A DNA stretch of 29,118 nucleotides from a virus. The stretch lies in the IMG/VR virus record IMGVR_UViG_3300007540_000072, positions 1 to 29,118 of that record; one strand, given 5' to 3'. Positions within the stretch are counted from its first letter, which is position 1, and every line of letters starts with the position of its first letter. Under the pieces are notes generated by a model. That model did no database searches. It was not told the DNA's origin and worked only from the letters and a program-made list of their open reading frames with translations. Positions 1,785-24,371 of the stretch are shown here, one piece after another. Made by a program: the position numbers and the translations under genes.

Positions 1785-2455
1785 TGGCGAACTTTAAAAG
1801 ATGGGATACTGCTAGCCCAGTATTCGACCCAACAGCTCATATAGCTAAAGTAGCTACTGGCCCTGCAATTAAAACAGTATCCAAAGGTATGGGTCTTGGC
1901 ATGGCAGGCCTAGGTAAAGCTGGCGCTTTCATGTCAGGAGCAGCTAATATCCTTGGTCCAGTTTCAATGGGTCTTCAAGTAGCTGGTATGTTACATGGTG
2001 CATGGAATCAAGCTAAACAAGCAAATAAAATGAAAGCCGATTTAGCTAAAAAGGCTGATACCATTCAAAATCAAATAACTCAAAACTCAGTAGCTTTAAG
2101 AGGCGACCTGTCTGATATAGATGAAGAATATCAAGGTAAGCAAACTGACCTTGGTGAAAGCATTGGTGAGACATTAGAAGACGCAACTAAAAGCCTAGGT
2201 AAAACTATTAAGCGTGGCAGAGGGCTATTAACAGGCGCAGAAACAATAAGTAAACAAGAGATTATGGATGATACAGGCAACTTTGCTGAACGCAGCATGG
2301 AAAGACTTAATACTCAACGAGGTGGGGATTATGCTGGCATTATAGACCCTTACAATAGACAGCAAGCACAGAGCCATCAATCTTTGCTAGATATAGCATC
2401 ACAACGTAAACAATTAGAGAGTCAAGACTCTATGTGGGAGAATTTATTAGGATGA
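1784..2455 (+). CDS. Putative internal virion/ejection protein with Gly-Ala hydrophobic segment, 223 residues
   Basis: The start ATG overlaps the preceding stop. Residues about 28-75 are a Gly/Ala/Met-rich hydrophobic stretch (GMGLGMAGLGKAGAFMSG and following) that could insert in a membrane, followed by a long charged helical region (about 80-140) and a glutamine-rich C-terminus. A membrane-active segment plus helices is the usual make-up of ejection proteins that follow the DNA into the host in podovirus-like phages. The stop overlaps the next start in an ATGA arrangement. The role is inferred from composition and position only. Confidence 0.7.
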   Translation: MANFKRWDTASPVFDPTAHIAKVATGPAIKTVSKGMGLGMAGLGKAGAFMSGAANILGPVSMGLQVAGMLHGAWNQAKQANKMKADLAKKADTIQNQITQNSVALRGDLSDIDEEYQGKQTDLGESIGETLEDATKSLGKTIKRGRGLLTGAETISKQEIMDDTGNFAERSMERLNTQRGGDYAGIIDPYNRQQAQSHQSLLDIASQRKQLESQDSMWENLLG

Positions 2456-3519
2456 GTAACACAATAAACGATTTAATTCAATTTGCAGATACACTACAAC
2501 GCAGAAAGGTTGAAGATAGGCGCTATCAAGACCAGAAAAATATGCAACTTGCTCAGATAGCATCAGTTAAGGATAAAGAGCATAAAATTATCGGTAGCCA
2601 GCATTTACTTAATAATGCAATGATGAAATTTAATAAAAGCGGATGGGAAGATGGTATATATAAGAGCTCTGATGTAAACTCTGATGATGTGCTACAAGAA
2701 TACTTGACGGATATGGATGAGAAATATGGATTAGCGGGTGATGCTATTCAAGTTGGCGAAGCTCTAAGCAATCAGAAATCCAAGCAACTGGTAAAGGATG
2801 CATCTGAACTTAACCTAAGGATTAGAGCTTGGGATGAGCAAAATAAAAATAAATACGCTAATATGAATCCATTTGATAATTATAAATTAGCCCAAGATAG
2901 AAAGGCCTATTTAAAGTCTCTTAATGCTGACGAGCTATATGCCAAGTTGTATGGGTCTTTTGGTGAAGCCAAAGCGATGGAAGGTACAGGATTAACTCCT
3001 GCAGATTTCGGTAAGGATGCAAGTTGGTTTCAGAAGCATCCAGTATTGACTGGGCTTGGAGGGGCTGGAATTGCTGGAGCTGGTCTATTTGCTGGCAAAT
3101 CAGCTTTAGGCGCTACTGAACAAGCATTAAAAGGCATTAAAAAACCTAAAATGACGGCTAAGGTCTTAAAGGGCTTAAAAAAAATGGCTCCGTGGTTCGC
3201 TCCAGAAATTGGCAGAGCTATAGATGAGAAAACTGGTATGTCTATTCCAGCAGCACAATCAGCAGGTACAGCCTGGCTTGTTACAAAGGCTGGGAAAAAT
3301 TTATTAGATGGAGAGTTTGCCCAGTTCTTAAAGAAAAGGGTGCCAGATGTCATGGCTAAGGTTGGTAAAAAAGCCGCTGCTAAACATGTTGCTTCTGCAA
3401 GCACTGGAGTTGGCGCAAATCCATACTGGCAAGCAGGACTTATTGTAACTGATTTACTCGCTGCAGGCTATGCTATTCAGGAATTATATAAAGAGTGGGA
3501 AAACTTGTCTAGTAACTAA
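2452..3519 (+). CDS. Putative internal virion/ejection protein, 355 residues
   Basis: The best start is ATG 2452 (MSNTINDLIQFADTLQRR), whose ATGA overlaps the upstream stop and which has GGGAG at about 2436; an in-frame ATG at 2434 lies further inside the upstream gene. Residues 1-180 are charged and helical. From about 196 there is a glycine-rich hydrophobic segment (GLGGAGIAGAGLFAGKSALG), and another apolar helix lies near the C-terminus (YWQAGLIVTDLLAAGYAIQ). Together with its two upstream neighbours it forms a set of membrane-active, probably capsid-internal proteins in front of the giant protein. Confidence 0.7.
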   Translation: MSNTINDLIQFADTLQRRKVEDRRYQDQKNMQLAQIASVKDKEHKIIGSQHLLNNAMMKFNKSGWEDGIYKSSDVNSDDVLQEYLTDMDEKYGLAGDAIQVGEALSNQKSKQLVKDASELNLRIRAWDEQNKNKYANMNPFDNYKLAQDRKAYLKSLNADELYAKLYGSFGEAKAMEGTGLTPADFGKDASWFQKHPVLTGLGGAGIAGAGLFAGKSALGATEQALKGIKKPKMTAKVLKGLKKMAPWFAPEIGRAIDEKTGMSIPAAQSAGTAWLVTKAGKNLLDGEFAQFLKKRVPDVMAKVGKKAAAKHVASASTGVGANPYWQAGLIVTDLLAAGYAIQELYKEWENLSSN

Positions 3520-3539: not shown

Positions 3540-6500
3540 ATGGCAGAACAACAATTTCAACCTCTTTGGACTAAAGAGCAGTTAAAACAGTTTACTACAC
3601 TATATGAAGGCAGAGGACATCTGCTTTCCCCTGAAAATAAGCAAAAGATAGAGCAGCACTCAGCATATTACAACGTCCCTTTCTATGAAGGTGAAGGTAG
3701 TATTATCAAGGGGATTAAGGCTGCTGGAGCGGGCATTGTTGACGCTCTAACGCTTAATCTTTTTGCGTCTCATGAGCCTCCAAAATCGCAATCTGAAGCT
3801 ATAGCAAAAAACATAGGGCATCTGATTGGTTTTGCTCCATCAATAATGTCTGCTCCATTAAGGGCTTTGGCGGGAGCGAGCAGAAGCAGAGGGCTTGCAA
3901 AAGCTGCAGGATACATTGCAAAGCAAGGTAATAAAATCTCTCCCTCAATGATTATTGCAGACAAGGCTACTAAGGTAGCTGATAAAGCCGCTAATGTTGG
4001 ATTAAATTTAGTTAATGCAGAGAAGATTAGCACGCTAACTGGCGCAAAAAAACTATTATTAGGTGGGCCTGCTAGAAGTATCGCTCGTCAATCATTTCAT
4101 CTTGGAGTAGCATCAGCAGCAGGAACTCTGCCTGATATTATTCAAGGTAATATTAATAGCACTTGGGAGGCGTTTAAAGGTGGTGCTACAGCTGGAGCTG
4201 CATTTGGAGTTATAGGTGAAACTATAGGCCCAATGAGCCATGCATCACTCAAAAAATTATTTGATAATCCTAAAACAGCAGCTCAAGGTAGTACTGCCCT
4301 AAAGGCTATATCAGGCTCTTTAGTGCAAGGGAATATGGCAGCCGGTCATGGCGCTACTAACCCAGAGTTAGTATATGAGTATCTTTTAGGTGCTTATTTT
4401 GGTGGGCATGCAGGGACATGGTATAAGACTCGAGCTCAAAAACTTGCTAATGAAATAGATTCTCAGAAATCTGGCACTGAATCTCAAAGAAAAGAATACA
4501 ATGAATGGGCAAAACAAACTGGGAAAGACTTACAGGCTCATTCAAAAGTAAGGGATGAACCTATCGAAGTTAGGGAGGCTTTGAAAGATTTACAAGCAAT
4601 GCCTGATTTTGGAGACCCTTATGATAATTTAACAGGAAATTATAAAGACCAGTTAAAGAAAGAGGCAGGCTTAAAGGATGTTCAAGTTACCCCTATCGAA
4701 AAAACTCCTGAAGGTTTTGTTGATAAAGGTGAATATGTTGCTGGCAGAAAAGTTGTTACTGTTACAGAAAGTGCCCTTAAAAAGGATAACTATATAGCAA
4801 CTACAGGTACTAAGGGTGACGCTGTCCTCTCTAATATTGCAGGGAAATATGGCTTACCATCATTTAATTATGTACCTCGAAGACCACCTAAAGAGATTCG
4901 TGCAGGGCTTGATAGACCTTTAAGCGAAGACCAAATACAAGAAGCTAATAAGCATATATCTAAAGCTTCTAAAAGCCTATCTGAGGTTGTTGAGCAGCCA
5001 GATGGTACCACAAAGACAATTCCATTGCCATTAGCCAATATAGACCCTTATAAGCGTACTTTAATCTCTAAGAATTATTGGGCTGTTAAAAATGCTAAAG
5101 AAGTATATTTGGTTACTGAACTACGTGGTGATACTGGCAATAAAATCGTTACAGATAGTATCCAGAAATGGCCAGCTCAAATGGCTAAGGATTTAGGAAA
5201 AGATTTATTTGTCTTGGATTCATCCACCAATAGATGGCATGAGTGGAATAAGCTTAGTAGACGTTTTGTACCGTTAGCCGACAATGCATCTCCCAAAAAA
5301 CCTTCTGATTCTATAGCCCTTTTAGGTGGAGATAGAGCTACTCAGTCGCGGGCTATAAGGCAGTCTATTGATACATGGCTATCTAGTCATTATAAGAAAA
5401 ACCCTATTGCAGGTGAGGTGGCTAGAAGAACTAGAAGGGTTCAAGCAGACTTAATTAAGGAAACTCAGCAATTAAATGCTCAAAAAGAAGGTATCCAGAA
5501 AGTATTAAAAGATTTATCTCAAGTAGAGCAGACCGATGATATTATAGCTCAAGTTAAGGGGTTAGAGAGCACCCTTGATAAGACTAATAAAGCTTTAGAG
5601 TTAATTGAAAGCCAGACTACTAAAACTTTTATAGAAGAGGCAATACAAGAAGAAGCTAAGACCAATGAGGTTATTGCAGAAAAATTAGATTTTGATACTG
5701 AAATAACAGATAAAGAAATTTATAAGACATCGATATATTTATCTGATAAATATTTTGAAGAGTTTTGGGGAGCTAGGGCTGGAATTGAAACATCTTACAA
5801 CCAGCATATTAAGAAAATAGAAATATCCCAAGCCATTGATGATATTATCTATAAGAAGCATGCAGAACGAGGCTCTAAGAAAAATCGCTCAGAAGATGCA
5901 ACTAAGGATATAGAAGATTATATTAACGATAAAGATAGTCAGTTTGATAAAACAGACTTTAAATTACCTGAGCAAGCTAGAGGGGATATTAGACAGGCTA
6001 TATCAAGATATAATTTAGGTGCCCCTGTTTACCATTTAGCGTCTGATGGAATTACATATTATAAAATCCCTGGCAATAATCAGGTCTCTAGAGGAGGGAC
6101 TCGTAAGAACCAATTAGAACCTGAAAAATATATAGAATCAACCTATAAGAATGCTGCAGAAGCTGCAGGTCTTGAGGTTAAAGAGCCTTTTATGTTCACC
6201 CTGGACCATGTAACGCGATTTAATAAAGACCGTGGCTTTAATGTGGATATGGAATTATCTAGATTTAGGCAACAAGCAGACCCTGCAGAGTACCGAGCTT
6301 TTATAAAAAATGTTGCGGAAAAAGCTGACAAAGAAGGTATGTATATATTTGGTGGGGCTAGCGATAAAGACAGGCTTTATTTTATTAAATATCACCCTCA
6401 AGCCAGTGAAACTGTTCAGAAAAATACTCAATTATTTTTTAATCAGCTTTCAAAGCAAGGGTTGTTCACTAAAGAGGACTTGACTCTTTCAAGGAAGCAG

Positions 6501-9500
6501 TCTGCTCAAGATGGCATGACTCGTAGTCAGCATGACAAAGCCTTGATATCTAATATACTCTATGATTTAAGTATGAATGGACAAACAATTTATGACATTC
6601 CTAAGTTTCTTAAGTCTGATGCTCAATTCGTAAAAGGCTCTGCTGGATTTAATAAACGTGCTCAAATATGGTTTACAAATTCATATCCTGCTGATGCTGA
6701 ATTTATCAAGTCTAATTACATTAATGATGCTGGACAGTCTCTATTAAATAAGAACGGTAAGTATAACACTATTATGGTTAATGACTTACCTGAGCATATC
6801 AGAAATAAGATGGATAAAAAGCATCCAGATTATGATAAAGATTTTACTTTTGCTAAAAATTCATTAGATAACATAGAGAATCCAGAAAATGTTGATGGCG
6901 CTATTATAGTTCCTGATAATTTACTTAATGTAATTAATAAAGACTTTGGGGTTCCTAAATCTGGCCAGAATAAGTCATTCATAATCTCTCCCGATAGAGA
7001 GCATGGAACATTACTTGGTAAGTATATGATGCATGGAGCAGGCCCAGAATTAAGTAAAATGATGGAATCTCAAGGGCTTCATATGATTATGCAAGAAACT
7101 GCTGTTAAGCAGCGTGGTACACGTGAAATAGGTGATTATTTTATTAAGGATGGGGAGCTTGATATACAAGCAAAAACTTATGAAATAAGCCCTGAAGATG
7201 TTAAAGGTTCATATGGCGTATATGGTAATGACCACTTCTTTGATACACAAAGGCTACCTAAACAAGTTATGCTTAATATGCTTGAGTCTAGCTTTAATCC
7301 AATGAGTCAAGATGTTATTAATGAGTCTTTTGATAAGATTATAGGCAATCGCTGGAATGGTGAACCAGAGTTTCAGAATAAGCTAAAGAATTATTTAGAA
7401 GATTCGGCAGAGGGAATAGAGCCAAGCTCTAGAATACCTAACTTAATTAAGAACATTGAAAAGATACCAGTCTTTGACCTTGTAGAGGCTGTGCGCTCTG
7501 AAAGCTCTCCTCAGTTAGCAGAAGCATTGTATCAGAAAATGCTTAAGGTTAATAAGGAAAATGTAGCTATTGAGCATAGGGATGGTGATATTAATTCAGG
7601 GCAATACAAAGAATATCTAACTGAATTAAATGAGTTTAATAGTATTACGGACCGGTTGATTAAAAATGCTACTGCTATAGCAGAAGAAGCTAGAAGCGCT
7701 GGAAGTAATATTACTGCCGATTCAATCTATAATCATAAGTTTATTCGAGACTTTAAAGCTAGGGCTGTACAAAGCTTTTTAATTAATACTGCAGCTAAAC
7801 CTTTTATGGGTAACTCTGGGGCTGCATATATGCGTCCATATGATAAAGCTATGCGTATCAATCTTGATAAGGCTAATGAATTGCTTGATTTAAATCATTT
7901 GAATGGCATTAATAAAAATGATGAAATATTCTTTTTAGATAATTTTCATAAAAAAGTGAAAATATATTTAAATGATGCTAGAGGGTCAGAGTATAAAAGC
8001 ACCCTAGGTGAAGTATTTTCTGACTATTCTAAGCTTCAATCAAAAAAGCGTAATAAAGCTGATAATGAGCGTTTAGCATATTTAGAAGAAGTTTTAACTG
8101 CTGCTACAGTAAGAGTGCCAATGGATTCAGTATCAGGCATGCGTATACTTAAATTTGGTGGCTTTACTGGTAGAGATGGGCATGGCATATTATTACATTC
8201 TAAGGCAATGAGAGCAGAAGGTGGAGCCGACCTTGATGGGGATAAAGCCTTCTACTATTTTGGCGGCACTCGTGGTATGTCTAAAGATATGATGCAAGAG
8301 TTTCATAAGAATAAAAAAGAATTTGAATATACTGATGCTAAAGGTGAAATTTATACTAAGGATAATAAAGAGGCTCTAATTAATCAGGATATTACTATAG
8401 CTGGGGTAAAGTATAAAAAAGGTACTCCTGTCAGGGAACTACTTATTGCGCGCGCAGAAACTGAGCAAGATAAAAATAAAATGGCATTAGCTGAAAGTTC
8501 ATTAAGCCATTATGCCCCCTCTGAACGTATACGTATATCTTCAGCTGCAGTAGATGGGCGTAATCAATTAGGTCCAGCAGTTTCTAATTCTCAATTAATG
8601 AAAGGTGCTTTTAATTCAATAGTCGCCTCTGGTGGTACAGATGTACTTAATTTTAAAGATATCTATCTTGGAGATATTGGTGTTACAATTAAAGCTAAAA
8701 ATGATAAGGATAGTGTTTTACTGCAAAGAGATATAAGTAGAGCGCAATTAGGCTTAGCATCTGACCCTATGGATGAGCTTGGTCTCTCTAGTATTAAGTC
8801 ATGGAAGAAGATTCTATGGGACTCGTACTTTGAGGTAATAGATGCCAAGACTAAGGATGGCAAACGAGTTCCTAAGGCTGAATTAGCTGCCCTTAAGGAG
8901 AGATTATCGCAGGTAGATGAGCTAGACTTTAGTTATACTAATTCAGGCTTATTCGGCGATTTTGTTAATCTAAATAAGGGGTTGTGGGGCAGAAATTATA
9001 CGGAAAATAGAGCATTTGATATGTATGAGATACAAGATTTATTAAGCTCTTCAATGAATATTTTAGAACGTAAAGGTGCCTCTAATTCATTTTTACCTAA
9101 AATTGGAAATCTGTTTGTTAATTTAGACTGGTCAGATTCTCCATTTACCCGACTTAACAAGCAAAAACTTTTATATTCATATATCCAGACTAATAATAAA
9201 TTAAAAGCTCGTAAGCCTTTACAGGAACTATTAGGTCGTTCAAGTATGAAAGTTCCGTATACTGAACAGATATCTAATATATTGGAAACTAAGTATAATG
9301 ATAGGGTCTATTCAATTTATCGACCGTCTGATAGAGTAGATGCTGCTGGTAGCGTTGATGTGTTTAATAGAATTATTAAAGGGACTAGATATTCTGATAG
9401 AGCAAAAGGAATTGAAGGTATTTCTGATAATACTACAGATGGCTTTCATTTACGACTTAAAATGCTTAATAAGATGGTGAAGCAGGGTGAAGACTTTATT

Positions 9501-12500
9501 GTTAATGATATTACTGATATGATAACCCTTAATCTTATTGATGATATTATGAAAACTAGCAATATCTCGCCTAAAAGATTTCAGGCTATTTCAGAAATGG
9601 TGGATTATCTTAAAAAGAATAGTTATTTAATGATGCGTGATAGGCAAAATCTTGAAGCTAGATTATCAAGCATCAAAGATAAGCGTATTCGTGAAATATT
9701 CAAAGGGGCTACTGATGAAATATTTAAAGGCGGTAAGGAAGTTAAACCTGGTGAAGACCCAATTAGAACATCTGAAATGGACCAAGTTGCGATTGACCAA
9801 CAAATCAAGCAATTTAGAAAAAAGGCGGGATTAAATAAGGCTGAAAATATGCTCTTTGACCAGTTGATGCTTGGGTCAATCACTAGAGGTACTAAGCTCG
9901 ATAAAATTGAAGCTTTTGAGTCTGAAGCTAAGAGAACTAAAAATAAAATTGCTTTAGATTATATTAAGAATTTAAGAAACTTAAATTCTAAAACAAACCT
10001 TGGTAGGTTAGGGTTTAGCAGCAGCGCTATTAATGATTCATCTGTTCGTTTGCATCTTAGGCGGTATATGGAAATGATGAATGAAAATTATATCCCTCTA
10101 AATAAAACTGAATTAGCATCGCTTGATAAAGCTCTTGGTAATATTATAGATACACCTCCATCTATGCCTAATGTTATATCAAAGATGGCCACGAATACTG
10201 GCTTTGAAGGTATTGACACTAAAGCTAGGCCTACTAAAAATAAAGAGCTTGCAAGCTTGGTATCAGAAACTGCTGTTTTATTAAAAAATCATCCTGATAT
10301 CGTTAAGAAAAAATCTGGTGAAGATTTGAATGAGTTCATTAGAGGATTGCCATTTATAAGAAAAGATTTCGATGCGATGAGTATTGCGGACGTATATAAA
10401 CTCAATGCATATTTAAAGCAGGTCAAGGAAGGTACTATATGGCAAAGAATTAAAGATACCTTTGGTAAGGATAAAAAAGCCCTTTCTTTTAGGCATTACC
10501 AACAATTACCTAGTACAGTCAGTAGAGAGCTTGAGGCTACAGAGATAAACCTTATTCGCAAAGAAGGGTATTTTACTGATGCTAAGGGTGAGTTGCAATT
10601 TGGTAAAATTAAGGTTCCTACTCAATTTATAGATACATTGACCAATAGTATAGGTAGAATGACCGAGATGGGGACTCAGGTTGGAGATAAGCTTGTTAGT
10701 AGATTCCAAGAAAGTCAGTTATTTTATCAAGGTGTTGAAGATGCAGCACGTTTATGGGAAGTTGCTATTAGACAGCGAGAATATGATGGTCGTCATGAAT
10801 TAAGAAGTATCCGTGAGAAGTTAGGTAAAGACCCTAAAGCTACAGAGCGTTCTATTAAATATATGGAACAAAATTTAAAGGATGCTAAGAAAGCAATAGA
10901 CTGGACTAAAACTCAAAATAAAAAATATTTAGTAAACCTCCCTGAAGGTAGAGTTGAGCGGACTGGAAAGCAGATTATAGACAGGATTAATAAAAATTTA
11001 ACTGAATATATGGAAGAAATGCATACCATTATTCGCGGAAGAGAAGAATTTCGTGGCGAGCAATCACCATATTTTATAGAATGGTATGATAAAGAGCAAT
11101 TATCACCTAAATACAATCATACAGCTTTTTTAAAGGATTTAGATACCTATCTTAATGGTCGTGTGCCTTTGCGCTGGAGAAAGGTTATGAAGAGCACTAA
11201 TGAATCAATCCCTAGTATATTTGGTATTGATGGCGTTAGAGCTATGATGCGTGAAATGCATATTGAATTTTTAATGGAAATAGGTAGAAATAAGGGTGGT
11301 GAAGTTGGAAAGAAATTTATTGAAAAGGCTCGTGAATTATCAGATTATCCTGTAAAGGAAACTGGAAAGCTATCCTTTGAATCATATTTCCCAAGAATGT
11401 TCTTTGAACCAGGTGTAGTTAAAAAAGGATTAAAGGCGGCTACACAAGAAATTATTAATGATAAGACGCTTACATCTGAAGCAAGGATTGATAAGTTAGT
11501 TAAAATTCAAAATAAATATAAACGACTTGATGGTGATTATTTCTTTGAAGAAATGGAAGATGGCCCATTATATGATTCTTTAACTAAAGCATTGCATGCA
11601 AAAGAAGAAGTTTCTAGTGAAAGAATGAAAAACTGGTTCAGCCTTGATGCTAGTACAGGTAATATGAGGAGCCGTGAGCATAGTACTGAAGGTTGGAGTG
11701 TTGCTCCTACTTCTGTTGAGGCATATGTTAGGTCATTAAGCAATACATATTTTAAAGGCCTTGCTGGGATGATATCTCGTAATATTGTTTCCAATCCTGA
11801 AACTGGTGTATACAAGAAATTAGTTAATAAGTGGGGGGTTGAGAATGCAGAAGCATGGACTGAATATGCTAAATTATATGTTAATGATGCTTTAGGTAAT
11901 CCTGTAACTATCTCAGAGAAAATGATGAATGACCCTAAAATGGCCTTGAAATATTCTCCATATGCAAGATGGGCAGATAATAGGGTTGCAGACAAACTAA
12001 GTAAATGGTCTGCTAAATTGGGTATAAAGGGGGTTGTTGATAAGGATGGCCAAATTTTAGGCGGAGTTAATGAGTATGATGTAAAAAGATTATCTCAAAT
12101 GGAAGCTAGATTTCAAATGGCTTCTTTGCTTGCTCATCCAAAATCAATGGCTGCCAACCTTATGGGTGGTACATTACATACCTTGCAAAGCTCAGGATTA
12201 AGTGCATTTAGGAATGTATTTAATTATGAATATTTACAAAATATTAATCCAAAGTTAAAAAGTCGCTCTGATGTTGAAGATATGGTAATGGACCATGGAG
12301 TTTTACCTCAATGGATGATATATGAATTAGGGTTGCAAAAAGAATTTCAAACTAATCAAGGTAAAGAAAGCCTTAAAGTTATATCTGATTTCATTAAGCG
12401 TAACCCTAATGCAAAACCAAAAGAATTAACAGAGTATTTAAAATCTATTGGCTCAGGCATTAGCGAAAAGACTTCTAATTTTGCAGCTAAATTTATGACT

Positions 12501-13271
12501 GTACCTGAAAGAAAGCTTCGTACCGATGCATTTATGGCTCATTATATTAAGGCATGGGAATCATTTGGTGGAGCTATTAAAGACCCTAATCATCCATTTT
12601 TAATTGAAATGGCTAAAAAGGGTGTTGAAGCTACTCAATTCCTTTATTCAGCTCCATATAGGCCTGCTTATGCAAGAACATCATTAGGAAAGGTAATGAC
12701 TAGATTCCAAATGTATGCATGGAACTCTGTTAAGCTACGTGGTGATGTGATGAGAAGACTGGAAGTGGCAGGATATAAGCCTAATAGCCCTGAGGGCAGG
12801 GAAGCAACAAGGTTTATTATGGGCGATATGTTTATGCTATCCTTAGCTAATATATTTGCTTATTCATTATTTGAAAATAACTTACCTCAACCTTATGGAT
12901 GGTTTCAGGATACAGCTGATTGGATTTTTGGAGATGAGAAAGAGCGAGATAAAGCTTTCTTTGGCACCTATCCTACAGCAATTGCTCCATTGCAAGCTAT
13001 TACACCTCCAATAGGCCGTGTTGGATTAATTATATCTAATATATTAAATGGGGATATGGAAAGAGTTACGGATTATTATATACATACAATGTATCCGTTT
13101 GGTAGAATGGGTCGTGATATTTATGGAAAAGGTGGGATATTAGAAGCCCCTATTAGGCTTGTAGATAAGTTAACTGGTATACCTTTGACCCAGATACAAA
13201 GAAAGACAAAAAGAATGCGTGAGCAGGAATCTGAGTTTTTATATCCTAAAGCATTTACAGGTGGATACTAA
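3540..13271 (+). CDS. Giant virion-associated protein (3243 residues) with DLDGD motif, candidate two-barrel RNA polymerase
   Basis: One uninterrupted frame starts at ATG 3540, with AAGGGG about 12 bases upstream, and fills a third of the window. Seen directly: an apolar/amphipathic N-terminal region (about 45-80), a coiled coil at about 630-705, and at residues 1564-1568 the motif DLDGD within GGADLDGDKAFYYFGG. About 40 residues earlier is RVPMDSVSGMRILKFGG. This order resembles the second double-psi barrel of two-barrel polymerases: DFDGD in cellular beta-prime, DLDGD in QDE-1-type RNA-dependent polymerases and DxDGD in the virion-packaged polymerase of crAss-like phages. A hydrophobic stretch lies near residues 3096-3115. 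The position after ejection-type proteins suggests that it travels in the virion and is injected. Polymerase activity is an inference; the rest of the chain is unrecognised and may be a multi-domain 'polyvalent' protein. Confidence 0.85.
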   Translation: MAEQQFQPLWTKEQLKQFTTLYEGRGHLLSPENKQKIEQHSAYYNVPFYEGEGSIIKGIKAAGAGIVDALTLNLFASHEPPKSQSEAIAKNIGHLIGFAPSIMSAPLRALAGASRSRGLAKAAGYIAKQGNKISPSMIIADKATKVADKAANVGLNLVNAEKISTLTGAKKLLLGGPARSIARQSFHLGVASAAGTLPDIIQGNINSTWEAFKGGATAGAAFGVIGETIGPMSHASLKKLFDNPKTAAQGSTALKAISGSLVQGNMAAGHGATNPELVYEYLLGAYFGGHAGTWYKTRAQKLANEIDSQKSGTESQRKEYNEWAKQTGKDLQAHSKVRDEPIEVREALKDLQAMPDFGDPYDNLTGNYKDQLKKEAGLKDVQVTPIEKTPEGFVDKGEYVAGRKVVTVTESALKKDNYIATTGTKGDAVLSNIAGKYGLPSFNYVPRRPPKEIRAGLDRPLSEDQIQEANKHISKASKSLSEVVEQPDGTTKTIPLPLANIDPYKRTLISKNYWAVKNAKEVYLVTELRGDTGNKIVTDSIQKWPAQMAKDLGKDLFVLDSSTNRWHEWNKLSRRFVPLADNASPKKPSDSIALLGGDRATQSRAIRQSIDTWLSSHYKKNPIAGEVARRTRRVQADLIKETQQLNAQKEGIQKVLKDLSQVEQTDDIIAQVKGLESTLDKTNKALELIESQTTKTFIEEAIQEEAKTNEVIAEKLDFDTEITDKEIYKTSIYLSDKYFEEFWGARAGIETSYNQHIKKIEISQAIDDIIYKKHAERGSKKNRSEDATKDIEDYINDKDSQFDKTDFKLPEQARGDIRQAISRYNLGAPVYHLASDGITYYKIPGNNQVSRGGTRKNQLEPEKYIESTYKNAAEAAGLEVKEPFMFTLDHVTRFNKDRGFNVDMELSRFRQQADPAEYRAFIKNVAEKADKEGMYIFGGASDKDRLYFIKYHPQASETVQKNTQLFFNQLSKQGLFTKEDLTLSRKQSAQDGMTRSQHDKALISNILYDLSMNGQTIYDIPKFLKSDAQFVKGSAGFNKRAQIWFTNSYPADAEFIKSNYINDAGQSLLNKNGKYNTIMVNDLPEHIRNKMDKKHPDYDKDFTFAKNSLDNIENPENVDGAIIVPDNLLNVINKDFGVPKSGQNKSFIISPDREHGTLLGKYMMHGAGPELSKMMESQGLHMIMQETAVKQRGTREIGDYFIKDGELDIQAKTYEISPEDVKGSYGVYGNDHFFDTQRLPKQVMLNMLESSFNPMSQDVINESFDKIIGNRWNGEPEFQNKLKNYLEDSAEGIEPSSRIPNLIKNIEKIPVFDLVEAVRSESSPQLAEALYQKMLKVNKENVAIEHRDGDINSGQYKEYLTELNEFNSITDRLIKNATAIAEEARSAGSNITADSIYNHKFIRDFKARAVQSFLINTAAKPFMGNSGAAYMRPYDKAMRINLDKANELLDLNHLNGINKNDEIFFLDNFHKKVKIYLNDARGSEYKSTLGEVFSDYSKLQSKKRNKADNERLAYLEEVLTAATVRVPMDSVSGMRILKFGGFTGRDGHGILLHSKAMRAEGGADLDGDKAFYYFGGTRGMSKDMMQEFHKNKKEFEYTDAKGEIYTKDNKEALINQDITIAGVKYKKGTPVRELLIARAETEQDKNKMALAESSLSHYAPSERIRISSAAVDGRNQLGPAVSNSQLMKGAFNSIVASGGTDVLNFKDIYLGDIGVTIKAKNDKDSVLLQRDISRAQLGLASDPMDELGLSSIKSWKKILWDSYFEVIDAKTKDGKRVPKAELAALKERLSQVDELDFSYTNSGLFGDFVNLNKGLWGRNYTENRAFDMYEIQDLLSSSMNILERKGASNSFLPKIGNLFVNLDWSDSPFTRLNKQKLLYSYIQTNNKLKARKPLQELLGRSSMKVPYTEQISNILETKYNDRVYSIYRPSDRVDAAGSVDVFNRIIKGTRYSDRAKGIEGISDNTTDGFHLRLKMLNKMVKQGEDFIVNDITDMITLNLIDDIMKTSNISPKRFQAISEMVDYLKKNSYLMMRDRQNLEARLSSIKDKRIREIFKGATDEIFKGGKEVKPGEDPIRTSEMDQVAIDQQIKQFRKKAGLNKAENMLFDQLMLGSITRGTKLDKIEAFESEAKRTKNKIALDYIKNLRNLNSKTNLGRLGFSSSAINDSSVRLHLRRYMEMMNENYIPLNKTELASLDKALGNIIDTPPSMPNVISKMATNTGFEGIDTKARPTKNKELASLVSETAVLLKNHPDIVKKKSGEDLNEFIRGLPFIRKDFDAMSIADVYKLNAYLKQVKEGTIWQRIKDTFGKDKKALSFRHYQQLPSTVSRELEATEINLIRKEGYFTDAKGELQFGKIKVPTQFIDTLTNSIGRMTEMGTQVGDKLVSRFQESQLFYQGVEDAARLWEVAIRQREYDGRHELRSIREKLGKDPKATERSIKYMEQNLKDAKKAIDWTKTQNKKYLVNLPEGRVERTGKQIIDRINKNLTEYMEEMHTIIRGREEFRGEQSPYFIEWYDKEQLSPKYNHTAFLKDLDTYLNGRVPLRWRKVMKSTNESIPSIFGIDGVRAMMREMHIEFLMEIGRNKGGEVGKKFIEKARELSDYPVKETGKLSFESYFPRMFFEPGVVKKGLKAATQEIINDKTLTSEARIDKLVKIQNKYKRLDGDYFFEEMEDGPLYDSLTKALHAKEEVSSERMKNWFSLDASTGNMRSREHSTEGWSVAPTSVEAYVRSLSNTYFKGLAGMISRNIVSNPETGVYKKLVNKWGVENAEAWTEYAKLYVNDALGNPVTISEKMMNDPKMALKYSPYARWADNRVADKLSKWSAKLGIKGVVDKDGQILGGVNEYDVKRLSQMEARFQMASLLAHPKSMAANLMGGTLHTLQSSGLSAFRNVFNYEYLQNINPKLKSRSDVEDMVMDHGVLPQWMIYELGLQKEFQTNQGKESLKVISDFIKRNPNAKPKELTEYLKSIGSGISEKTSNFAAKFMTVPERKLRTDAFMAHYIKAWESFGGAIKDPNHPFLIEMAKKGVEATQFLYSAPYRPAYARTSLGKVMTRFQMYAWNSVKLRGDVMRRLEVAGYKPNSPEGREATRFIMGDMFMLSLANIFAYSLFENNLPQPYGWFQDTADWIFGDEKERDKAFFGTYPTAIAPLQAITPPIGRVGLIISNILNGDMERVTDYYIHTMYPFGRMGRDIYGKGGILEAPIRLVDKLTGIPLTQIQRKTKRMREQESEFLYPKAFTGGY

Positions 13272-13474
13272 CGACTTTGTACTTTTTCTAGTAGTAATCC
13301 TAATATAGATGTATCAGCACAATCTGCGTGTAAATTAACAGTTTCTTCTGCATATAAACCACCTGATTCAATAAACCCATAAGACATACTTATTACTGGC
13401 GTATTAGGCCCCATTAAGTCCTTACATATCGGACATATTGAATAAGTATGCTCTACCTCATTAATTACCTTCAT
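13268..13474 (-). CDS. Small Cys-containing protein, 68 residues
   Basis: Starts at ATG 13474 (MKVINEVEHTYSICPICKDL), with GGGG/GAAG upstream; a TTG two codons earlier is possible. A CPIC pair near residue 14 and an HADC near residue 50 suggest one small zinc site. Its last four bases overlap the last four of the giant gene on the opposite strand. It is the final gene of the leftward early region. No known function. Confidence 0.65.
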   Translation of the reverse strand: MKVINEVEHTYSICPICKDLMGPNTPVISMSYGFIESGGLYAEETVNLHADCADTSILGLLLEKVQSR

Positions 13475-13769
13475 CTTCAACCATTCCCCATAGAAGCATT
13501 GTATATACTATAATATCAGTAAGCCTGCCTCTAACATCTTCTCTTTGCGATTTATGACCTTTAGTATATGATACTACGCCATCTATATGCTTTAATAAGT
13601 AGGTCATGAGAGCGGTTTCTCGAGTTATATCAAGGGTGTTAGCTACACGTTCAAAATTAGCGAAGACATTGTCTTCATCATGCGCGTATTCCTTCTGCCC
13701 CGACTGCCTCGTCTTTGTTATTTCCGTCAGTATCCGCTCCATCAGCAGATTCATCTTCTTTGTTGTCAT
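13461..13769 (-). CDS. Small helical early protein with YAHDEDNVFANFERVA motif, 102 residues
   Basis: ATG 13769 is preceded by AGAGGA at about 8 bases, so I keep this start even though it makes the gene overlap its upstream neighbour by 91 bases. The core pattern (KEYAHDEDNVFANFERVA, then a helical stretch with KHIDGVV and REDVRGRLTDIIVYTMLLWG) is one I associate with a widespread family of small phage early proteins with an all-helical, MazG-like appearance (acidic residues on helices). The specific enzymatic role is not established from the sequence. The gene sits in a run of small overlapping early genes. Confidence 0.7.
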   Translation of the reverse strand: MTTKKMNLLMERILTEITKTRQSGQKEYAHDEDNVFANFERVANTLDITRETALMTYLLKHIDGVVSYTKGHKSQREDVRGRLTDIIVYTMLLWGMVEDEGN

Positions 13770-13968
13770 TGTTAATTTCCTCTAATTTTGTGTCAAGAAA
13801 CTTTTTAAACTTCTTGCTATCTTTTTTATATTCAATATACATATCTATAACGCCATACAGTTCACTAATCCTTTCTTGAGCTATTTGCAACTCTTGAATA
13901 AGTGAGCTAACAACCTTAACTACATCCTTGATACCTGGTTTCTTATTATGTTGTTTAGATTTAGTCAT
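13678..13968 (-). CDS. Small coiled-coil protein with acidic tail, 96 residues
   Basis: Starts at ATG 13968, overlapping the end of the upstream gene by 8 bases. Residues 15-70 form a predicted helix/coiled coil (SLIQELQIAQERISELYGVI), followed by an Asp/Glu/Asn-rich C-terminal tail. The acidic tail is encoded in the stretch that also encodes the N-terminus of the next gene in another frame. A low-complexity tail may therefore be partly a by-product of overlap. No family recognised. Confidence 0.65.
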   Translation of the reverse strand: MTKSKQHNKKPGIKDVVKVVSSLIQELQIAQERISELYGVIDMYIEYKKDSKKFKKFLDTKLEEINNDNKEDESADGADTDGNNKDEAVGAEGIRA

Positions 13969-14185
13969 CTAATATACCTTCCTTCATTCGTTTACGATAA
14001 TTTTTACTGCCATAGACTTCTCTATAGACACATTTTCTACACACTATAACTTCACGGGGCTCCCAATCAGGTACGAATTGTTGAGGTTTATACTTGAAGG
14101 GAGTCCGCTTTACGAAGTCATTACACATTTCACATTTAGTCAGCGGCGTTGTTGTCGTCCTCTTCGCTATCAGAGTCTTTGTCAT
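13961..14185 (-). CDS. Zinc-finger-like small protein, 74 residues
   Basis: Two CxxC pairs are visible (CEMC near residue 18 and CRKC near residue 49), separated by an aromatic, basic linker, as in a small zinc ribbon. The start at ATG 14185 makes a 50-base overlap with the upstream gene; a later start would remove the first CxxC, so I prefer the long form. The C-terminus is basic (YGSKNYRKRMKEG). Nucleic-acid binding is plausible but inferred. Confidence 0.65.
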   Translation of the reverse strand: MTKTLIAKRTTTTPLTKCEMCNDFVKRTPFKYKPQQFVPDWEPREVIVCRKCVYREVYGSKNYRKRMKEGILDD

Positions 14186-14543
14186 TGTCGCTTTCTAATG
14201 TTAGGCCTGTAGCCTTAATAAGTCCATCTATTTCAGCTTCAGCCAGTATATTATGGATATCCTGGTAAGATTCCTGATGAGTGTCCATATGTAATTTAAG
14301 CTCAGCTTTAATGTTCATTCTTTCTCCATCATCAAGGTTTATCTCTTCCATAATCTTATTAACTGTTAAATACAGAAGAGCTGCATCTTTTGACAGTAGC
14401 AGCTCCTCAAATATACGAACTTTATGTTCATCCTCCAAATCATCCGTAGCCACTGCCTTCCCCATCTTGTGGAGTATTGCAGTAACATCACTTAATAGCA
14501 TAAGCAAGAAGTGTTTTGGATATGAAGAAATTCCATCCATCAT
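14136..14543 (-). CDS. Early protein with acidic C-terminus, 135 residues, unknown function
   Basis: ATG 14543 overlaps the upstream TGA (ATGA). The protein is mostly helical for residues 1-115 (HFLLMLLSDVTAILHKMG; EEINLDDGERMNIKAELKLH) and ends in a strongly acidic tail (SDNDKDSDSEEDDNNAAD). The tail overlaps the next gene's start region. No catalytic motif is visible, and the acidic tail could mimic DNA or simply result from the overlap. Confidence 0.65.
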   Translation of the reverse strand: MMDGISSYPKHFLLMLLSDVTAILHKMGKAVATDDLEDEHKVRIFEELLLSKDAALLYLTVNKIMEEINLDDGERMNIKAELKLHMDTHQESYQDIHNILAEAEIDGLIKATGLTLESDNDKDSDSEEDDNNAAD

Positions 14544-14809
14544 TTGCTAACTGTCCCAATCTTATTCTTATAAAGCTCTTCAAGCCTTTTGATTGTCACC
14601 TTTATTAATTCTGGCGTCACAGTTACATGAAATTCAGTCTTGTTACCTAAGCCAATCTTACTAAACTTACGTAATTGATTTTTATAAAAAGCAACTAATC
14701 CCAGTGGAGATGCAAGCCTATCGTTGATAGAATAACTTGACATATTTCTGCCCTTTTCTGAGTTGATTTGCTTTAAATAAGCCTTGGTTAGGCCATCTAA
14801 TTCGCTCAC
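14540..14809 (-). CDS. Small early protein, 89 residues, unknown function
   Basis: Starts with GTG at 14809-14807, overlapping the upstream TAG (TAGTG), and ends in an ATGA overlap with the next gene. The sequence is mixed helical/strand and basic (LGLVAFYKNQLRKFSKIG; TPELIKVTIKRLEELYKNK). There are no Cys pairs or membrane segments. Tight coupling on both sides supports it as a real gene of the operon; the function is unknown. Confidence 0.65.
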   Translation of the reverse strand: MSELDGLTKAYLKQINSEKGRNMSSYSINDRLASPLGLVAFYKNQLRKFSKIGLGNKTEFHVTVTPELIKVTIKRLEELYKNKIGTVSK

Positions 14810-14982
14810 TATAGTTTCCCTTCTGGCTCTTTCTTAGGAGCCTGTTTAGATTTTGGAGCTGTTTCAGGATTTTCAAGCCAATTTATTCTTTGGACAATCA
14901 CCTTTATTCGCTCTTCAATAATAAGCAGCCTTTCAAATATAGACTGCAAGTCATTATTATATTCACCTATTCTATCTCTCAC
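14809..14982 (-). CDS. Small coiled-coil protein, 57 residues
   Basis: Starts with GTG at 14982-14980, overlapping the TGA of the upstream gene, and its TAG overlaps the GTG start of the following gene. The N-terminal 36 residues (DRIGEYNNDLQSIFERLLII, then EERIKVIVQRINWLE) form an amphipathic coiled coil. The last 20 residues are Lys/Pro-rich. The perfect stop/start couplings on both sides are the main evidence that it is translated. Function unknown. Confidence 0.65.
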   Translation of the reverse strand: MRDRIGEYNNDLQSIFERLLIIEERIKVIVQRINWLENPETAPKSKQAPKKEPEGKL

Positions 14983-15272
14983 AGTCCAAGCTCCTCAAGC
15001 TCTTTATGTACTACAGGCTTGATTGTGTCTGGAATATGTTCAAAGAATTGCATTAGTATGTTATAAGCCTCTTCATAGGCCTTTAAAGGCGTTTGGCTTA
15101 TTGGGTGGGTAGATTGCTCCATTACAAGCTTAAGTGCCTGTATCCACCCAACATTGACGTAATAGTCATTGTCTTTAAAATCAGCCACTTCTTGAGGGTT
15201 AGCATTTTCATAACTCTCATTTACTCTTAGGCACTGTTCTAGTACCCTTTTTATCTGGTTTTCTCCCAGCAT
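14979..15272 (-). CDS. Small helical early protein, 97 residues
   Basis: I start it at ATG 15272 (MLGENQIKRVLEQCLRV), which has AAAGGAG six bases upstream; a longer in-frame start at 15359 would run through a separate small gene in another frame. The protein is acidic and helical (YYVNVGWIQALKLVMEQ; YEEAYNILMQFFEHIPD). It overlaps the upstream small gene by 56 bases and its TGA overlaps the next GTG start. Function not recognised. Confidence 0.65.
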   Translation of the reverse strand: MLGENQIKRVLEQCLRVNESYENANPQEVADFKDNDYYVNVGWIQALKLVMEQSTHPISQTPLKAYEEAYNILMQFFEHIPDTIKPVVHKELEELGL

Positions 15273-15363
15273 CTGTATCTCCTTTCTTGAAGATTCTATT
15301 AAATTTGTCGGCATAATCTTGCGACCAAGGTATTCTCTTTTTGTCACCTTTACCTGCATTCAT
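15217..15363 (-). CDS. Small basic phage protein of the GKGD type, 48 residues
   Basis: Reads MNAGKGDKKRIPWSQDYADK, continues FNRIFKKGD and has a Lys/Arg-rich tail. This N-terminal GKGDKxR...Y...F..IF layout recurs in very small proteins of many tailed phages, function unknown. It overlaps the end of the upstream zinc-ribbon gene by 14 bases and the next gene's start by 56 bases, in a different frame from both. Its family-like sequence is what makes the long version of the following gene unlikely. Confidence 0.65.
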   Translation of the reverse strand: MNAGKGDKKRIPWSQDYADKFNRIFKKGDTDAGRKPDKKGTRTVPKSK

Positions 15364-15553
15364 TGCACGACTCTCTTTTTAATCCATATGTAGGCATATC
15401 AGGTAGCTTAGTATATAGCATACCATCCTGATTGCCCCAGTATGATTGCCATACAGATTTACATGATTCACAAAACCTTAGTGGTGTTTGTGGCTCAGAT
15501 TTCCTTGGCTCTGGTATTTTATGCTTCAAATAATATTCTATTTCTGTCTTCAT
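15350..15553 (-). CDS. Zinc-ribbon protein, 67 residues
   Basis: Begins MKTEIEYYLKHKIPEPRKSE at ATG 15553. Contains CESC near residue 28 and CNEC at the C-terminus, a two-knuckle zinc ribbon, with an aromatic stretch between them (WQSYWGNQDGMLY). Very short proline/Cys proteins of this kind are common in phage early operons. It lies 16 bases downstream of the radical SAM gene. Exact role unknown. Confidence 0.65.
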   Translation of the reverse strand: MKTEIEYYLKHKIPEPRKSEPQTPLRFCESCKSVWQSYWGNQDGMLYTKLPDMPTYGLKRESCNECR

Positions 15554-15569
15554 TCTAACCTTTCATATA

Positions 15570-16445
15570 TTAAAATATATACCTAATTGTATTCCAAGGT
15601 ACTATACTGGTATGCTTAAGCTTAAACTTCTTTATGTATTCCTTTTTGTAGAATCTATTGTATCTAATATTAGTGTTACCATATTGAGAAACCTTAGTTT
15701 CCTGTATATCAGGAGTCCATAAGTAGTCTTCACCTTGTATATCATTTTTCTTGTTATATTCATGCATTTTTGGATTATGTGTCATAAATATACATTCAGA
15801 TAGTACATCTTTTTTGATATTATTCCTAACATTATCATTAACAAGCTCAAATAAGTCTTGATAGTCATCAAGCCACCCTGTATAATGCACTATAGGGCTG
15901 TAGTTAATATGCACATCATAACCTGCATCATAGAAATCATTTATTGCCTTGATTCTGTCTATAATTTGACTGGTATTAGGCTCTAGTTTATCGGATAATG
16001 CTTGAGGCATCAGGCTATATCTTATTCTTATCCTTCTATCACCATTTTTATCTCTAGAATCATAACTTAAAAGCTTTCTATTTACATATTTTGTAGCCAT
16101 AGTAGCCATTATAGGCAAGCCACACTCTTTAAAGCAGTTAAATATAAATTCCCAGTCATGGTATTTAGAATGTAATACAAAATCTTCATTGCAACTAATG
16201 TCATAGGTCCAAAATTTGTCATGTGTTTGGTTAGGCGTTTTTGGCCCAAGCATAAATGCATGTTCAAATATTTTATCAAAGATTTGCCCTGGATTATTTG
16301 CAATTGTTAAACCATTAGGTAAGTGTCTACGCATATAGCAATAGCTACATTTGTATAAACATCCAAAACCAAACGATGGTGATATATAATCACTGCTTCG
16401 CCCTGATTCCCTAATTTTCATAGATTTTCTTGTTACATACTTCAT
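15570..16445 (-). CDS. Radical SAM protein, spore photoproduct lyase-like, 291 residues
   Basis: The N-terminal segment contains FGFGCLYKCSYCYMRRH with the CxxxCxxC cluster at C29, C33 and C36, which binds the 4Fe-4S cluster that cleaves S-adenosylmethionine. The surrounding layout (SPSFGFGC, later INYSPIVHYTGWLDDY) is like the spore photoproduct lyase-type radical SAM family found in phages and bacteria. ATG 16445 overlaps the upstream stop (ATGA). The substrate is unknown: repair of UV-damaged DNA or modification of a base or protein are all possible. A Cys well after the cluster (C131 region), used by true photoproduct lyases, is not obvious, so I do not assign that reaction. Confidence 0.8.
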   Translation of the reverse strand: MKYVTRKSMKIRESGRSSDYISPSFGFGCLYKCSYCYMRRHLPNGLTIANNPGQIFDKIFEHAFMLGPKTPNQTHDKFWTYDISCNEDFVLHSKYHDWEFIFNCFKECGLPIMATMATKYVNRKLLSYDSRDKNGDRRIRIRYSLMPQALSDKLEPNTSQIIDRIKAINDFYDAGYDVHINYSPIVHYTGWLDDYQDLFELVNDNVRNNIKKDVLSECIFMTHNPKMHEYNKKNDIQGEDYLWTPDIQETKVSQYGNTNIRYNRFYKKEYIKKFKLKHTSIVPWNTIRYIF

Positions 16446-16642
16446 TTTTTGCTTCTTAATGATTCAGCTCGCTCTAATCTAGCATAAGCTTTTTTTTCTT
16501 TACAGTCATGAGGTTGACCAGTTTTTTTATTAAACAGTCTCCATCCATATTCTGTATCAGCCCAGTGGACTTTTCTAGAATCACATCTACAGTATTTACA
16601 ACCTCTAGATATGTATCCAAATTTTTTAGTTTTAGTATACAT
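16442..16642 (-). CDS. Small zinc-binding protein, 66 residues
   Basis: Start chosen at ATG 16642 (MYTKTKKFGYISRGCKYC), which follows GGGAG; an in-frame ATG further upstream lies past that ribosome site. Cysteines C15, C18 and C20 and a C-terminal HDC near residue 45 frame a GWRLFNKKTGQPHDC segment. This is a pattern of small phage zinc-ribbon proteins. Its last bases overlap the start of the radical SAM gene (ATGA), so the two are probably co-translated. Confidence 0.65.
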   Translation of the reverse strand: MYTKTKKFGYISRGCKYCRCDSRKVHWADTEYGWRLFNKKTGQPHDCKEKKAYARLERAESLRSKK

Positions 16643-16663
16643 AATACTCCCAATTAATCCCCT

Positions 16664-16766
16664 AGCCACAGGATTTTAGATTGCTAATTCGTGGTCAACA
16701 ACTGAAATCACTTAACTTGGATGAATGTAAATAACAAACCATGTTAATTAATATTCTCCTGTGGCT
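16664..16766 (-). other. Intergenic 10-bp perfect inverted repeat, possible RNA structure
   Basis: The arms AGCCACAGGA (16664-16673) and TCCTGTGGCT (16757-16766) are exact reverse complements, 83 bases apart, in the gap between the HNH gene and the zinc-ribbon gene. No good gene lies between them. A stem-loop in the leftward transcript is the simplest reading; a processing site or a remnant end of an inserted element are alternatives. Confidence 0.5.
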
Positions 16767-16781
16767 CTCTTGGGGAAACTT

Positions 16782-16985
16782 TTAAAACATGTCCTTGCCA
16801 GCTAATTTTCGGTTTATATAACCTCTAACCCATTCTTTTTGGGTATCTAGCCATTGGACAACACCTTGATATTCTTTGGTCGTTAGTGGACCTTTGCGTG
16901 TATTGCAACGCTTACAAATCATCTCTAAGTTTTTAGGAGTTGAGTCCCCACCATTACTAAGAGGTACCATATGGTCACACACCAT
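16782..16985 (-). CDS. HNH endonuclease, catalytic part downstream of an amber codon
   Basis: From ATG 16985 the frame gives 67 residues with DHMVPLSNGGDSTPKNL and CKRCN, the second half of an HNH nuclease (the catalytic His next to Asp, then the second zinc CxxC). The first zinc pair (KCKYCRN) is encoded just upstream in the same frame at about 17010-17021. No ATG, GTG or TTG lies between it and the TAG at 17043-17045. A protein starting at 16985 would lack the zinc site and probably not fold. The complete nuclease seems to be the joined reading 17282-16782; see the separate finding. Confidence 0.7.
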   Translation of the reverse strand: MVCDHMVPLSNGGDSTPKNLEMICKRCNTRKGPLTTKEYQGVVQWLDTQKEWVRGYINRKLAGKDMF

Positions 16986-17042
16986 ATTCCTAACATCAAG
17001 TATATTCCTACAATACTTACATTTATTCCCGTAAGCTCGTAG

Positions 17043-17282
17043 CTATAGTCTTCTAATCTCTGATAAAGAGATATCAAATACAACTTCATATTCCTTACTC
17101 CTTCTTTTTAAAGTTGAACGCAAAGTAGAACTTTTTTTCATTACTCTATGGAATATTCTTTGGGCATGATTTCCATGCATGCTCTTGAGGATAGGAAGAA
17201 ATTGTTCTTCCCAGAATAACGTTGATTTAGCCTTTCGAGGGGCTTTTACACCCCTCCTTGGCTTTTTAGCAGAAGGCTTCAT
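17043..17282 (-). CDS. N-terminal part of the HNH gene, or separate 79-residue basic protein
   Basis: Reads MKPSAKKPRRGVKAPRKAKS, a Lys/Arg-rich start, then FWEEQFLPILKSMHGNHAQR and YEVVFDISLSEIRRL, ending in TAG at 17043-17045. The same frame continues after the TAG into AYGNKCKYC and the rest of an HNH nuclease. The end of this part (FDISLSEIRRL) followed by the AYG-x-KCKYC segment is the normal continuous layout of phage HNH proteins. So this is most likely the N-terminus of one 166-residue gene, either read through, mutated or affected by a base error. Confidence 0.65.
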   Translation of the reverse strand: MKPSAKKPRRGVKAPRKAKSTLFWEEQFLPILKSMHGNHAQRIFHRVMKKSSTLRSTLKRRSKEYEVVFDISLSEIRRL

Positions 17283-17284
17283 AC

Positions 17285-17506
17285 CTATACGGTAGGTGTA
17301 CCTTTTAACGTGTACACAGCATACGTATTACCACCACGAGTTATCATGTTGGTTTGGATATCAAACCCCTTCTTCCTCCAATTAAATATAATTGCAGATA
17401 AACGGTAAATACCAAAACGAGTTAGTGCTTGACGTCCATTAATAGTACGTCCTCTAAGCATATGATTTAGCAGTTTTTGACTGCGACTTAAGGTTTTTCT
17501 TGCCAT
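17285..17506 (-). CDS. Helix-turn-helix DNA-binding protein, 73 residues
   Basis: The sequence contains a winged-helix-like core: GRQALTRFGIYRLSAIIFNW, then RKKGFDIQT and a beta wing (YAVYTLKG). This matches the small phage helix-turn-helix family with the ALxxFGIxRLxxxIxxLRxxGxxI pattern. ATG 17506-17504 overlaps the stop of the upstream gene (TAATG). It probably binds DNA as a local regulator or replication accessory protein. No operator was identified. Confidence 0.7.
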   Translation of the reverse strand: MARKTLSRSQKLLNHMLRGRTINGRQALTRFGIYRLSAIIFNWRKKGFDIQTNMITRGGNTYAVYTLKGTPTV

Positions 17507-17676
17507 TATTTACTCCATCCTATTGAGGTTGTAAGTTGTAGTTTCCATAAACTAAGGTGTAGTGTAGTGTTAAGGTATTCATCATCGATGTCTCCTGCAA
17601 TACCAATACTTAATATTCTAAAAAAGGTTACGACAAGAGTTTTCTCGTCAAACGCTATATCTAGTAAAAATCCCAT
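17506..17676 (-). CDS. Small protein between primase-helicase and HTH gene, 56 residues
   Basis: Reads MGFLLDIAFDEKTLVVTFFR and ends TSIGWSK. ATG 17676 overlaps the TAA of the primase-helicase gene (TAATG), and its own TAA overlaps the ATG of the helix-turn-helix gene (TAATG). Couplings of this kind on both sides are hard to get by chance. The protein is hydrophobic at the N-terminus but has no clear membrane helix. Function unknown. Confidence 0.6.
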   Translation of the reverse strand: MGFLLDIAFDEKTLVVTFFRILSIGIAGDIDDEYLNTTLHLSLWKLQLTTSIGWSK

Positions 17677-20712: not shown

Positions 20713-20790
20713 TATAGCTCCTTGAATTAAATGGGCCACAACCGAAGTTATGACCCATATTTTGTCCTAAATCACAAAAGTAATATATAG

Positions 20791-22424: not shown

Positions 22425-22432
22425 GTTTCTCC

Positions 22433-24118: not shown

Positions 24119-24130
24119 TGTAATCTCCAA

Positions 24131-24371
24131 ATTTGCTAAAAGGGGACGGACCAGGCAGGGACCCTCGGGTAATGATGTGGAAGAATCCCCTAATAGCGTT
24201 TCAAAACTGCAGAATAAGACGGATGGAGGGAGTTGTTGCGGGACCTCTTGGTACGTGAGTAATCAGCGGACTATATGAGTATCCAAAAAGGATTAATAGA
24301 CGTGTTATTTCATGGACTCTGGGTTGCGCGTAACTAATCGCAAAGATTTCTTATTCTACTCCAAAAGCGAT
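24131..24371 (-). other. 241-bp intercistronic stretch, GC-richer, no gene found
   Basis: Lies between the ubiquitin-like gene and the E2-like gene. It is clearly richer in GC than its neighbours (for example GGGACGGACCAGGCAGGGAC at about 24142-24161). Leftward there is an open frame of about 55 codons but with no plausible start codon. The 3' end holds the GGAG of the E2-like gene. A structured leader or RNA is possible; I see no long stem. Confidence 0.4.

Follow-up and report, generated by a model that had tools for sequence, protein, structure and literature searches.

The window analysed here, a virus record of 29,118 bases, carries an uninterrupted open reading frame (ORF) at positions 3540..13271 on the plus strand, which starts with ATG and runs for 3243 codons with no internal stop. 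According to the original prediction, the encoded protein contains the catalytic loop of a single-chain two-barrel RNA polymerase (RNAP) of the QDE-1/crAss-like kind and may be injected to transcribe early genes. Two-barrel RNAPs include both the cellular multisubunit enzymes and the eukaryotic RNA-silencing polymerases; to our knowledge, few single-chain two-barrel RNAP families of phages have been characterised.

The two signature motifs were confirmed: RVPMDSVSGMRIL begins at residue 1525, ahead of DLDGD at residues 1564-1568, and each occurs once in the protein. The layout of the giant gene and of the genes directly before it is as follows:

1113-1784, 1784-2455 and 2434-3519, plus strand: three small ORFs of virion/ejection type, with no informative family match.
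3540..13271, plus strand: the whole giant protein (ORF call; homologues at 76 loci).
3702..4439, plus strand: residues 55-300, an N-terminal segment rich in Gly/Ala and low in acidic residues that is conserved across relatives (alignment, composition).
4440..6149, plus strand: residues 301-870, a poorly conserved linker or insert (alignment).
6150..9539, plus strand: residues 871-2000, the predicted single-chain two-barrel RNAP module (AlphaFold2, Foldseek, VIA-align).
6966..7208, plus strand: residues 1143-1223, the beta-like double-psi barrel DPBB-A (DSSP string; approximate boundaries).
7260..7265, plus strand: invariant K1241-Q1242 after DPBB-A, near the conserved Q1116/K1119 of crAss RNAP (alignment).
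7308..7697, plus strand: residues 1257-1386, a helical connector joining the barrels in the neck/clamp-connector position (AlphaFold2 model), named by analogy with QDE-1 (PMC1750930) and PMC10770324.
7815..8261, plus strand: residues 1426-1574, the beta'-like double-psi barrel DPBB-B (AlphaFold2, VIA-align; approximate boundaries).
8112..8150, plus strand: RVPMDSVSGMRIL, residues 1525-1537, the counterpart of crAss R1322-x-P1324.
8229..8243, plus strand: DLDGD, residues 1564-1568, the predicted Mg2+-binding catalytic triad (alignment).
8517..8627, plus strand: residues 1660-1696, two long helices past DPBB-B with conserved PSxR and GRN (AlphaFold2, alignment), by position a bridge-helix candidate.
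8760..8783, plus strand: the nearly invariant SDPMDELG, residues 1741-1748 (alignment), by position a trigger-loop-region candidate.
12087..13184, plus strand: residues 2850-3215, a highly conserved, all-helical C-terminal region (alignment, model).

Relatives of the protein were collected from IMG/VR. A first scan with the catalytic region as query returned two informative relatives, L004, which is 59% identical to the window protein over its full length, and L005; a second scan, with a three-sequence alignment as query, recovered 76 loci with homologous giants, mostly of 2.8-3.6 kaa where complete. The 76 rows of the MAFFT alignment were reduced to 54 non-redundant sequences at 80% identity, which are 23-61% identical to the window protein. 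The related loci repeat the arrangement R[VT]P-x-D[SA]-x-SG...(25-30 aa)...GGAD-x-D-x-D, and, judged by sequence comparison, the recurrence of this motif pair across relatives is far beyond chance. In all 54 sequences, D1564, D1566, D1568, R1525, P1527, D1529, S1532, G1533 and H1553 are conserved, together with K1145, K1161, K1190, Q1191, K1241 and Q1242; the two members with no literal DLDGD (DLDAD in L069 and DTDGD in L082) keep the three aspartates. The catalytic residues are unchanged even where identity falls below 30%. DPBB-B carries the universal DxDxD that is a feature of two-barrel RNAPs, and the invariant K1145, K1161 and K1190 are candidates for the basic DPBB-A residues that face the active site in such enzymes. 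Conservation at ≥90% extends to 243 columns, concentrated in residues 1001-1242, 1501-1600 and 2850-3215, and is reached by no column of residues 301-850. Long lineage-specific insertions were observed within the polymerase module region of three relatives (L060:5315-10486, L061:7697-12334 and L078:1247-5440), where the equivalent of the window's 1130 residues spans 1398-1724 aa.

Searches of Pfam, PHROGs and PDB sequences with the whole protein gave no match, and a 60-sequence profile found chance-level matches only among PDB sequences. In cultured phages (50,697 records), four tblastn queries, namely the window protein plus three divergent relatives, returned nothing at E 0.01, and weak matches at E 0.1-4 were discarded as unrelated genes. 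A search of bacterial and archaeal genomes with the motif pattern yielded 20 stretches, with no relative among them; the literature searched, which included few subscription journals or preprints, held no description of the giant-RNAP family.

Structure prediction was more informative. AlphaFold2 modelling of residues 871-2000 with 60 sequences gave a mean pLDDT of 88.7 and a pTM of 0.87, and the predicted model has two DPBBs on one chain, A before B, so that double-psi barrels are placed around the motif as originally anticipated. Foldseek returned 11 PDB matches at E ≤ 0.001, every one of them a single-chain two-barrel RNAP, the best being 6vr4, the virion-packaged RNAP of the crAss-like phage phi14:2 (E 4.3e-11), followed by QDE-1 structures from E 2.7e-6; global TM-scores of the best matches are low (0.31-0.37) because the outer parts differ. 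VIA-align, in which models with no clear match reach a best Z of 7-8, gave Z 18.9 for QDE-1 (509 residues, 4.9 Å, ~11% identity), 16.8 for maize RDR2, 13.8 for P74-26 gp62 and P23-45 gp64, 12.2 for phi14:2 6vr4 (699 residues, 4.4 Å) and 11.2 for P23-45 gp96 (8h2m, 357 residues). Model residues 1-998 are matched by QDE-1, 6vr4, gp64 and RDR2. Structure matches in BFVD were headed by the unnamed protein A0A516LW39 (E 9e-53, TM 0.70), followed by crAss-like giants; to judge from the models, A0A516LW39 and similar unnamed BFVD proteins are probable family members.

Kinship with crAss RNAPs was also assessed at the profile level. An hhalign comparison of the profile of residues 1101-1800 with 14 crAss-type RNAPs scored 51.5 (pairwise E 9.9e-5), whereas the reversed profile scored 22.9 and the best of 60 column shuffles 24.2; its probability is only 58%, which makes the match a corroboration rather than a proof, and tblastn found no match at E 0.01. 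The alignment sets K1190 in register with phi14:2 K1065, R1525-x-P with R1322-x-P1324 and DLDGD with DFDID 1361-1365. Comparisons with single sequences were uninformative, and gp96 gave no significant sequence match by hhalign, profile included. In QDE-1, DPBB1 spans residues 690-792 (Q736, K743, K767) and DPBB2 residues 916-1018, with D1007/D1009/D1011 as counterparts of DLDGD (PMC1750930). Order and spacing lead us to suggest that K1161 and K1190 correspond to QDE-1 K743 and K767; of the two, K1190 alone was aligned, and to crAss only. Together, the structure model, the fold matches, the invariant residues and the profile–profile alignment strongly support the prediction of a single-chain two-barrel RNAP of the QDE-1/crAss kind, and we consider this model-based assignment of residues 871-2000 almost certain.

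Among known enzymes, the phi14:2 virion RNAP (6vr4, 2180 aa) shares with the window protein a giant single chain with both barrels, a place in a dsDNA-phage virion gene set, R-x-P and DxDxD in register and an aligned DPBB-A lysine. Its catalytic loop reads GSDFDIDK, compared with GGADLDGDK here, and Crassvirales genomes measure ~97 kb (phi14:2 ~100 kb), whereas the relatives' contigs reach ~56 kb at most. The terminase, portal and major head protein families of the L004 contig (phrog_38, phrog_156 and phrog_1328) did not recur in the four phi14:2 virion proteins scanned, all of them other than its terminase and portal. The giants could either branch off deep within the crAss RNAP family or stand beside it as its sister. 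P23-45 gp96 (8h2m, 5002 aa) is likewise a giant virion protein with an RNAP inside and a DFDGD motif, the virion location being putative for the window protein. The RNAP of gp96 is N-terminal, whereas here it is central (871-2000 of 3243), which rules out a gp96-type N-terminal tape-measure fusion. Further, gp96 is clamp-less, and its phage, which is long-tailed, encodes another RNAP, gp64 (PMC10770324), whereas no second two-barrel RNAP was found in eight genomes of the present group. QDE-1 and RDR2, which gave the highest VIA-align Z, have the same DPBB1-neck-DPBB2 order on a single chain; they differ in being eukaryotic, in acting on RNA or DNA templates and in not being virion proteins. 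The virion RNAP of the short-tailed phage N4, gp50 (~3500 aa), is likewise a giant located near ejection proteins, and is a T7-like right-hand RNAP; the analogy with it is functional only, the fold here being two-barrel. A T7/N4-type single-subunit RNAP was rejected, as Pfam RNA_pol PF00940 is absent from the protein and every fold match at E ≤ 0.001 is a two-barrel enzyme; a scan of 20 relatives for PF00940 was negative too, a weak result since the search's control also gave no match.

The genomic context was read in relatives with enough flanking sequence and holds for most of them. Typically, the gene for a large protein (~750-1700 aa) comes first, then two or three small ORFs, one of ~300-600 aa and the giant gene, which closes the late module or is its penultimate member and faces the leftward replication module. 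Downstream, there is sometimes one more rightward gene before the switch to leftward genes, often of ~115-145, ~140-170, ~150-190 and ~590 aa, the last represented in the window by a primase/DnaB-type helicase (17676-19445, profile matches). As for the claim that the gene sits after ejection-type proteins, its position stands: the ORFs directly upstream encode 223, 223 and 361 aa, and relatives have comparable genes ahead of the giant one; their role in ejection is putative. The L004 contig carries head-protein sequence at both ends; its terminase is clear by PHROG, even though a Terminase_6N search was almost blank. Because the L004 portal resembles P22-like portals from ~36 kb Vibrio phages, the phage is probably short-tailed. 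Among relatives, the larger contigs fall mainly between 42 and 56 kb. Eight genomes were read, of which G001 has L004 as its giant copy; no second protein in them carries both the RVP and DxDGD motifs, while DxDGD without RVP arises by chance in other large ORFs, so that one such protein was counted per examined genome.

The remainder of the window contains several further features. At 20791-24596 (minus strand) lie genes for an E1/ThiF-like protein (Pfam 1.1e-21; PADLOC E1-E2 6.5e-18), a JAB-like peptidase (0.00054), a 565-aa protein with no assignment and a 74-aa protein that ends in VKGGK and looks ubiquitin/ThiS-like by eye; by sequence, this is a possible phage ubiquitin-like conjugation operon, and similarly sized ORFs occur on the L004 contig. 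A 291-aa protein (15570-16445, minus strand) matches the spore photoproduct lyase (radical SAM) family at E 7.1e-19. Nine copies of TGATACATT are found at 24707-25064 in 36-nt steps (one of 37, one of 63), separated by spacers with a weaker common core resembling GTGGGATT. The array ends within the 3' end of an IS110-like ORF (25011-25961, minus strand) and has no equivalent in the other fetched loci; a frame shift inside it argues against a protein repeat. Terminator-like hairpins are enriched on both strands of 13272-29118 (20 against 8.3, sd 3.2, in shuffles), and ~1.4 kb at 25962-27393, which may harbour an origin, a promoter or a small RNA, contain several short hairpins and no ORF of ≥60 aa.

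As a whole, the locus is best explained by a giant virion protein with an embedded RNAP that is injected for early transcription, a reading we hold to be likely. The central ~1,100 residues (871-2000) would form a single-chain two-barrel RNAP, in which DPBB-A would supply the conserved lysines and DPBB-B R1525 and the Mg2+-binding D1564/D1566/D1568, with both barrels, the connector and the post-barrel helices within one polypeptide. The N-terminal segment of residues 55-300 (G+A = 30%) would be an ejection/virion-type region. For the C-terminal region, position and composition suggest virion packaging or delivery; its model (pLDDT 71) had no PDB match at E ≤ 0.001, and weak transporter matches were dismissed as helix packing. 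Both ends would most likely serve as packaging/ejection modules. The protein is probably packaged together with the small ejection proteins, would enter the host with the DNA and would transcribe the opposite-strand replication (early) genes off the incoming genome. Injection and early transcription are suggested by analogy with phi14:2, P23-45 and N4, and by this analogy we judge a virion location and an early-gene role to be quite probable. In crAss-like phages a packaged virion RNAP drives rifampicin-resistant early transcription (PMC10136315), and in P23-45 transcription of the pre-early genes falls to an RNAP fused to the tape measure protein (PMC10770324). Packaging and ejection fit the gene's place in the late module, its small virion-type neighbours and a Gly/Ala-rich N-terminus, none of which amounts to proof. 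The computations show homology, a fold match, conservation of the catalytic residues, a late-module position kept among relatives and one such protein per examined genome; that the protein makes RNA, reads DNA, is part of the virion, is ejected, transcribes early genes and recognises promoters is what we infer.

The promoter evidence bears on this role. The original prediction had pointed to few host-type promoters in the leftward region; the scan counted 62 sigma-70-like sites there, where shuffles gave 67.6 (sd 8.0), which shows no depletion or enrichment and leaves the argument without force. A search for repeated phage-specific promoter motifs between the genes of eight genomes gave none clearly above shuffles, the exception being low-complexity A/T in G007. 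Failure to find an early-promoter motif would suit a two-barrel RNAP that is made in the cell and, as P23-45 gp64 does, transcribes middle or late genes, with flanks that scaffold something else, and the VIA-align Z to gp64/gp62 indeed exceeds that to gp96. We nevertheless consider such a non-virion enzyme unlikely: the gene lies at or one place before the end of the late structural module, right after small virion-type genes, and not in the early one, giant size and a Gly/Ala-rich N-terminus are typical of ejected virion proteins, and no second two-barrel RNAP was found in the examined genomes.

Since the templates of 6vr4 (DNA) and QDE-1 (RNA/DNA) differ, the fold does not reveal which template is preferred. 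With the RNA-silencing polymerases QDE-1 and RDR2 giving the top VIA-align Z, the virion protein might instead act on RNA templates, as a primase, as another nucleotidyltransferase or as a nucleic-acid-binding ejection protein, and not as an early transcriptase. This is very improbable, because the phages have dsDNA, the relative's contig carries a terminase, a portal and a major head protein, and the window encodes a separate primase-helicase; moreover, the best Foldseek E-value belongs to a DNA-dependent virion RNAP, and QDE-1 takes DNA templates too (PDB entry titles). Finally, a structural decoy, in which DLDGD binds calcium or arose by chance and the protein is tape-measure-like with no polymerase function, would accord with the chance DxDGD motifs in other large ORFs and with the lack of recognition by any curated family, but is scarcely credible in view of the three aspartates, R1525, P1527, K1145, K1161 and K1190 being invariant in 54 sequences and of a confident two-barrel model at E 4e-11 to a known RNAP.

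Together, our results indicate a further family of the already known single-chain two-barrel RNAPs, in ~50 kb uncultured phages, which adds at least 54 non-redundant members that Pfam and PHROGs leave undetected. We lean towards the view that these phages, probably short-tailed, form a distinct and widespread lineage whose only phage RNAP is a giant virion-delivered two-barrel polymerase, of a family separate from those of crAss, P23-45 and YonO and structurally close to crAss RNAP and QDE-1. The family offers ready constructs for probing the minimal two-barrel polymerase, the threading of an enzyme through a phage tail and the crAss RNAP/QDE-1 junction in the tree. If the proposed role is true, an N4-like transcription strategy would be carried out by a two-barrel enzyme outside Crassvirales and Thermus phages, which suggests that host-independent early transcription is commoner in uncultured phages than annotations reveal.
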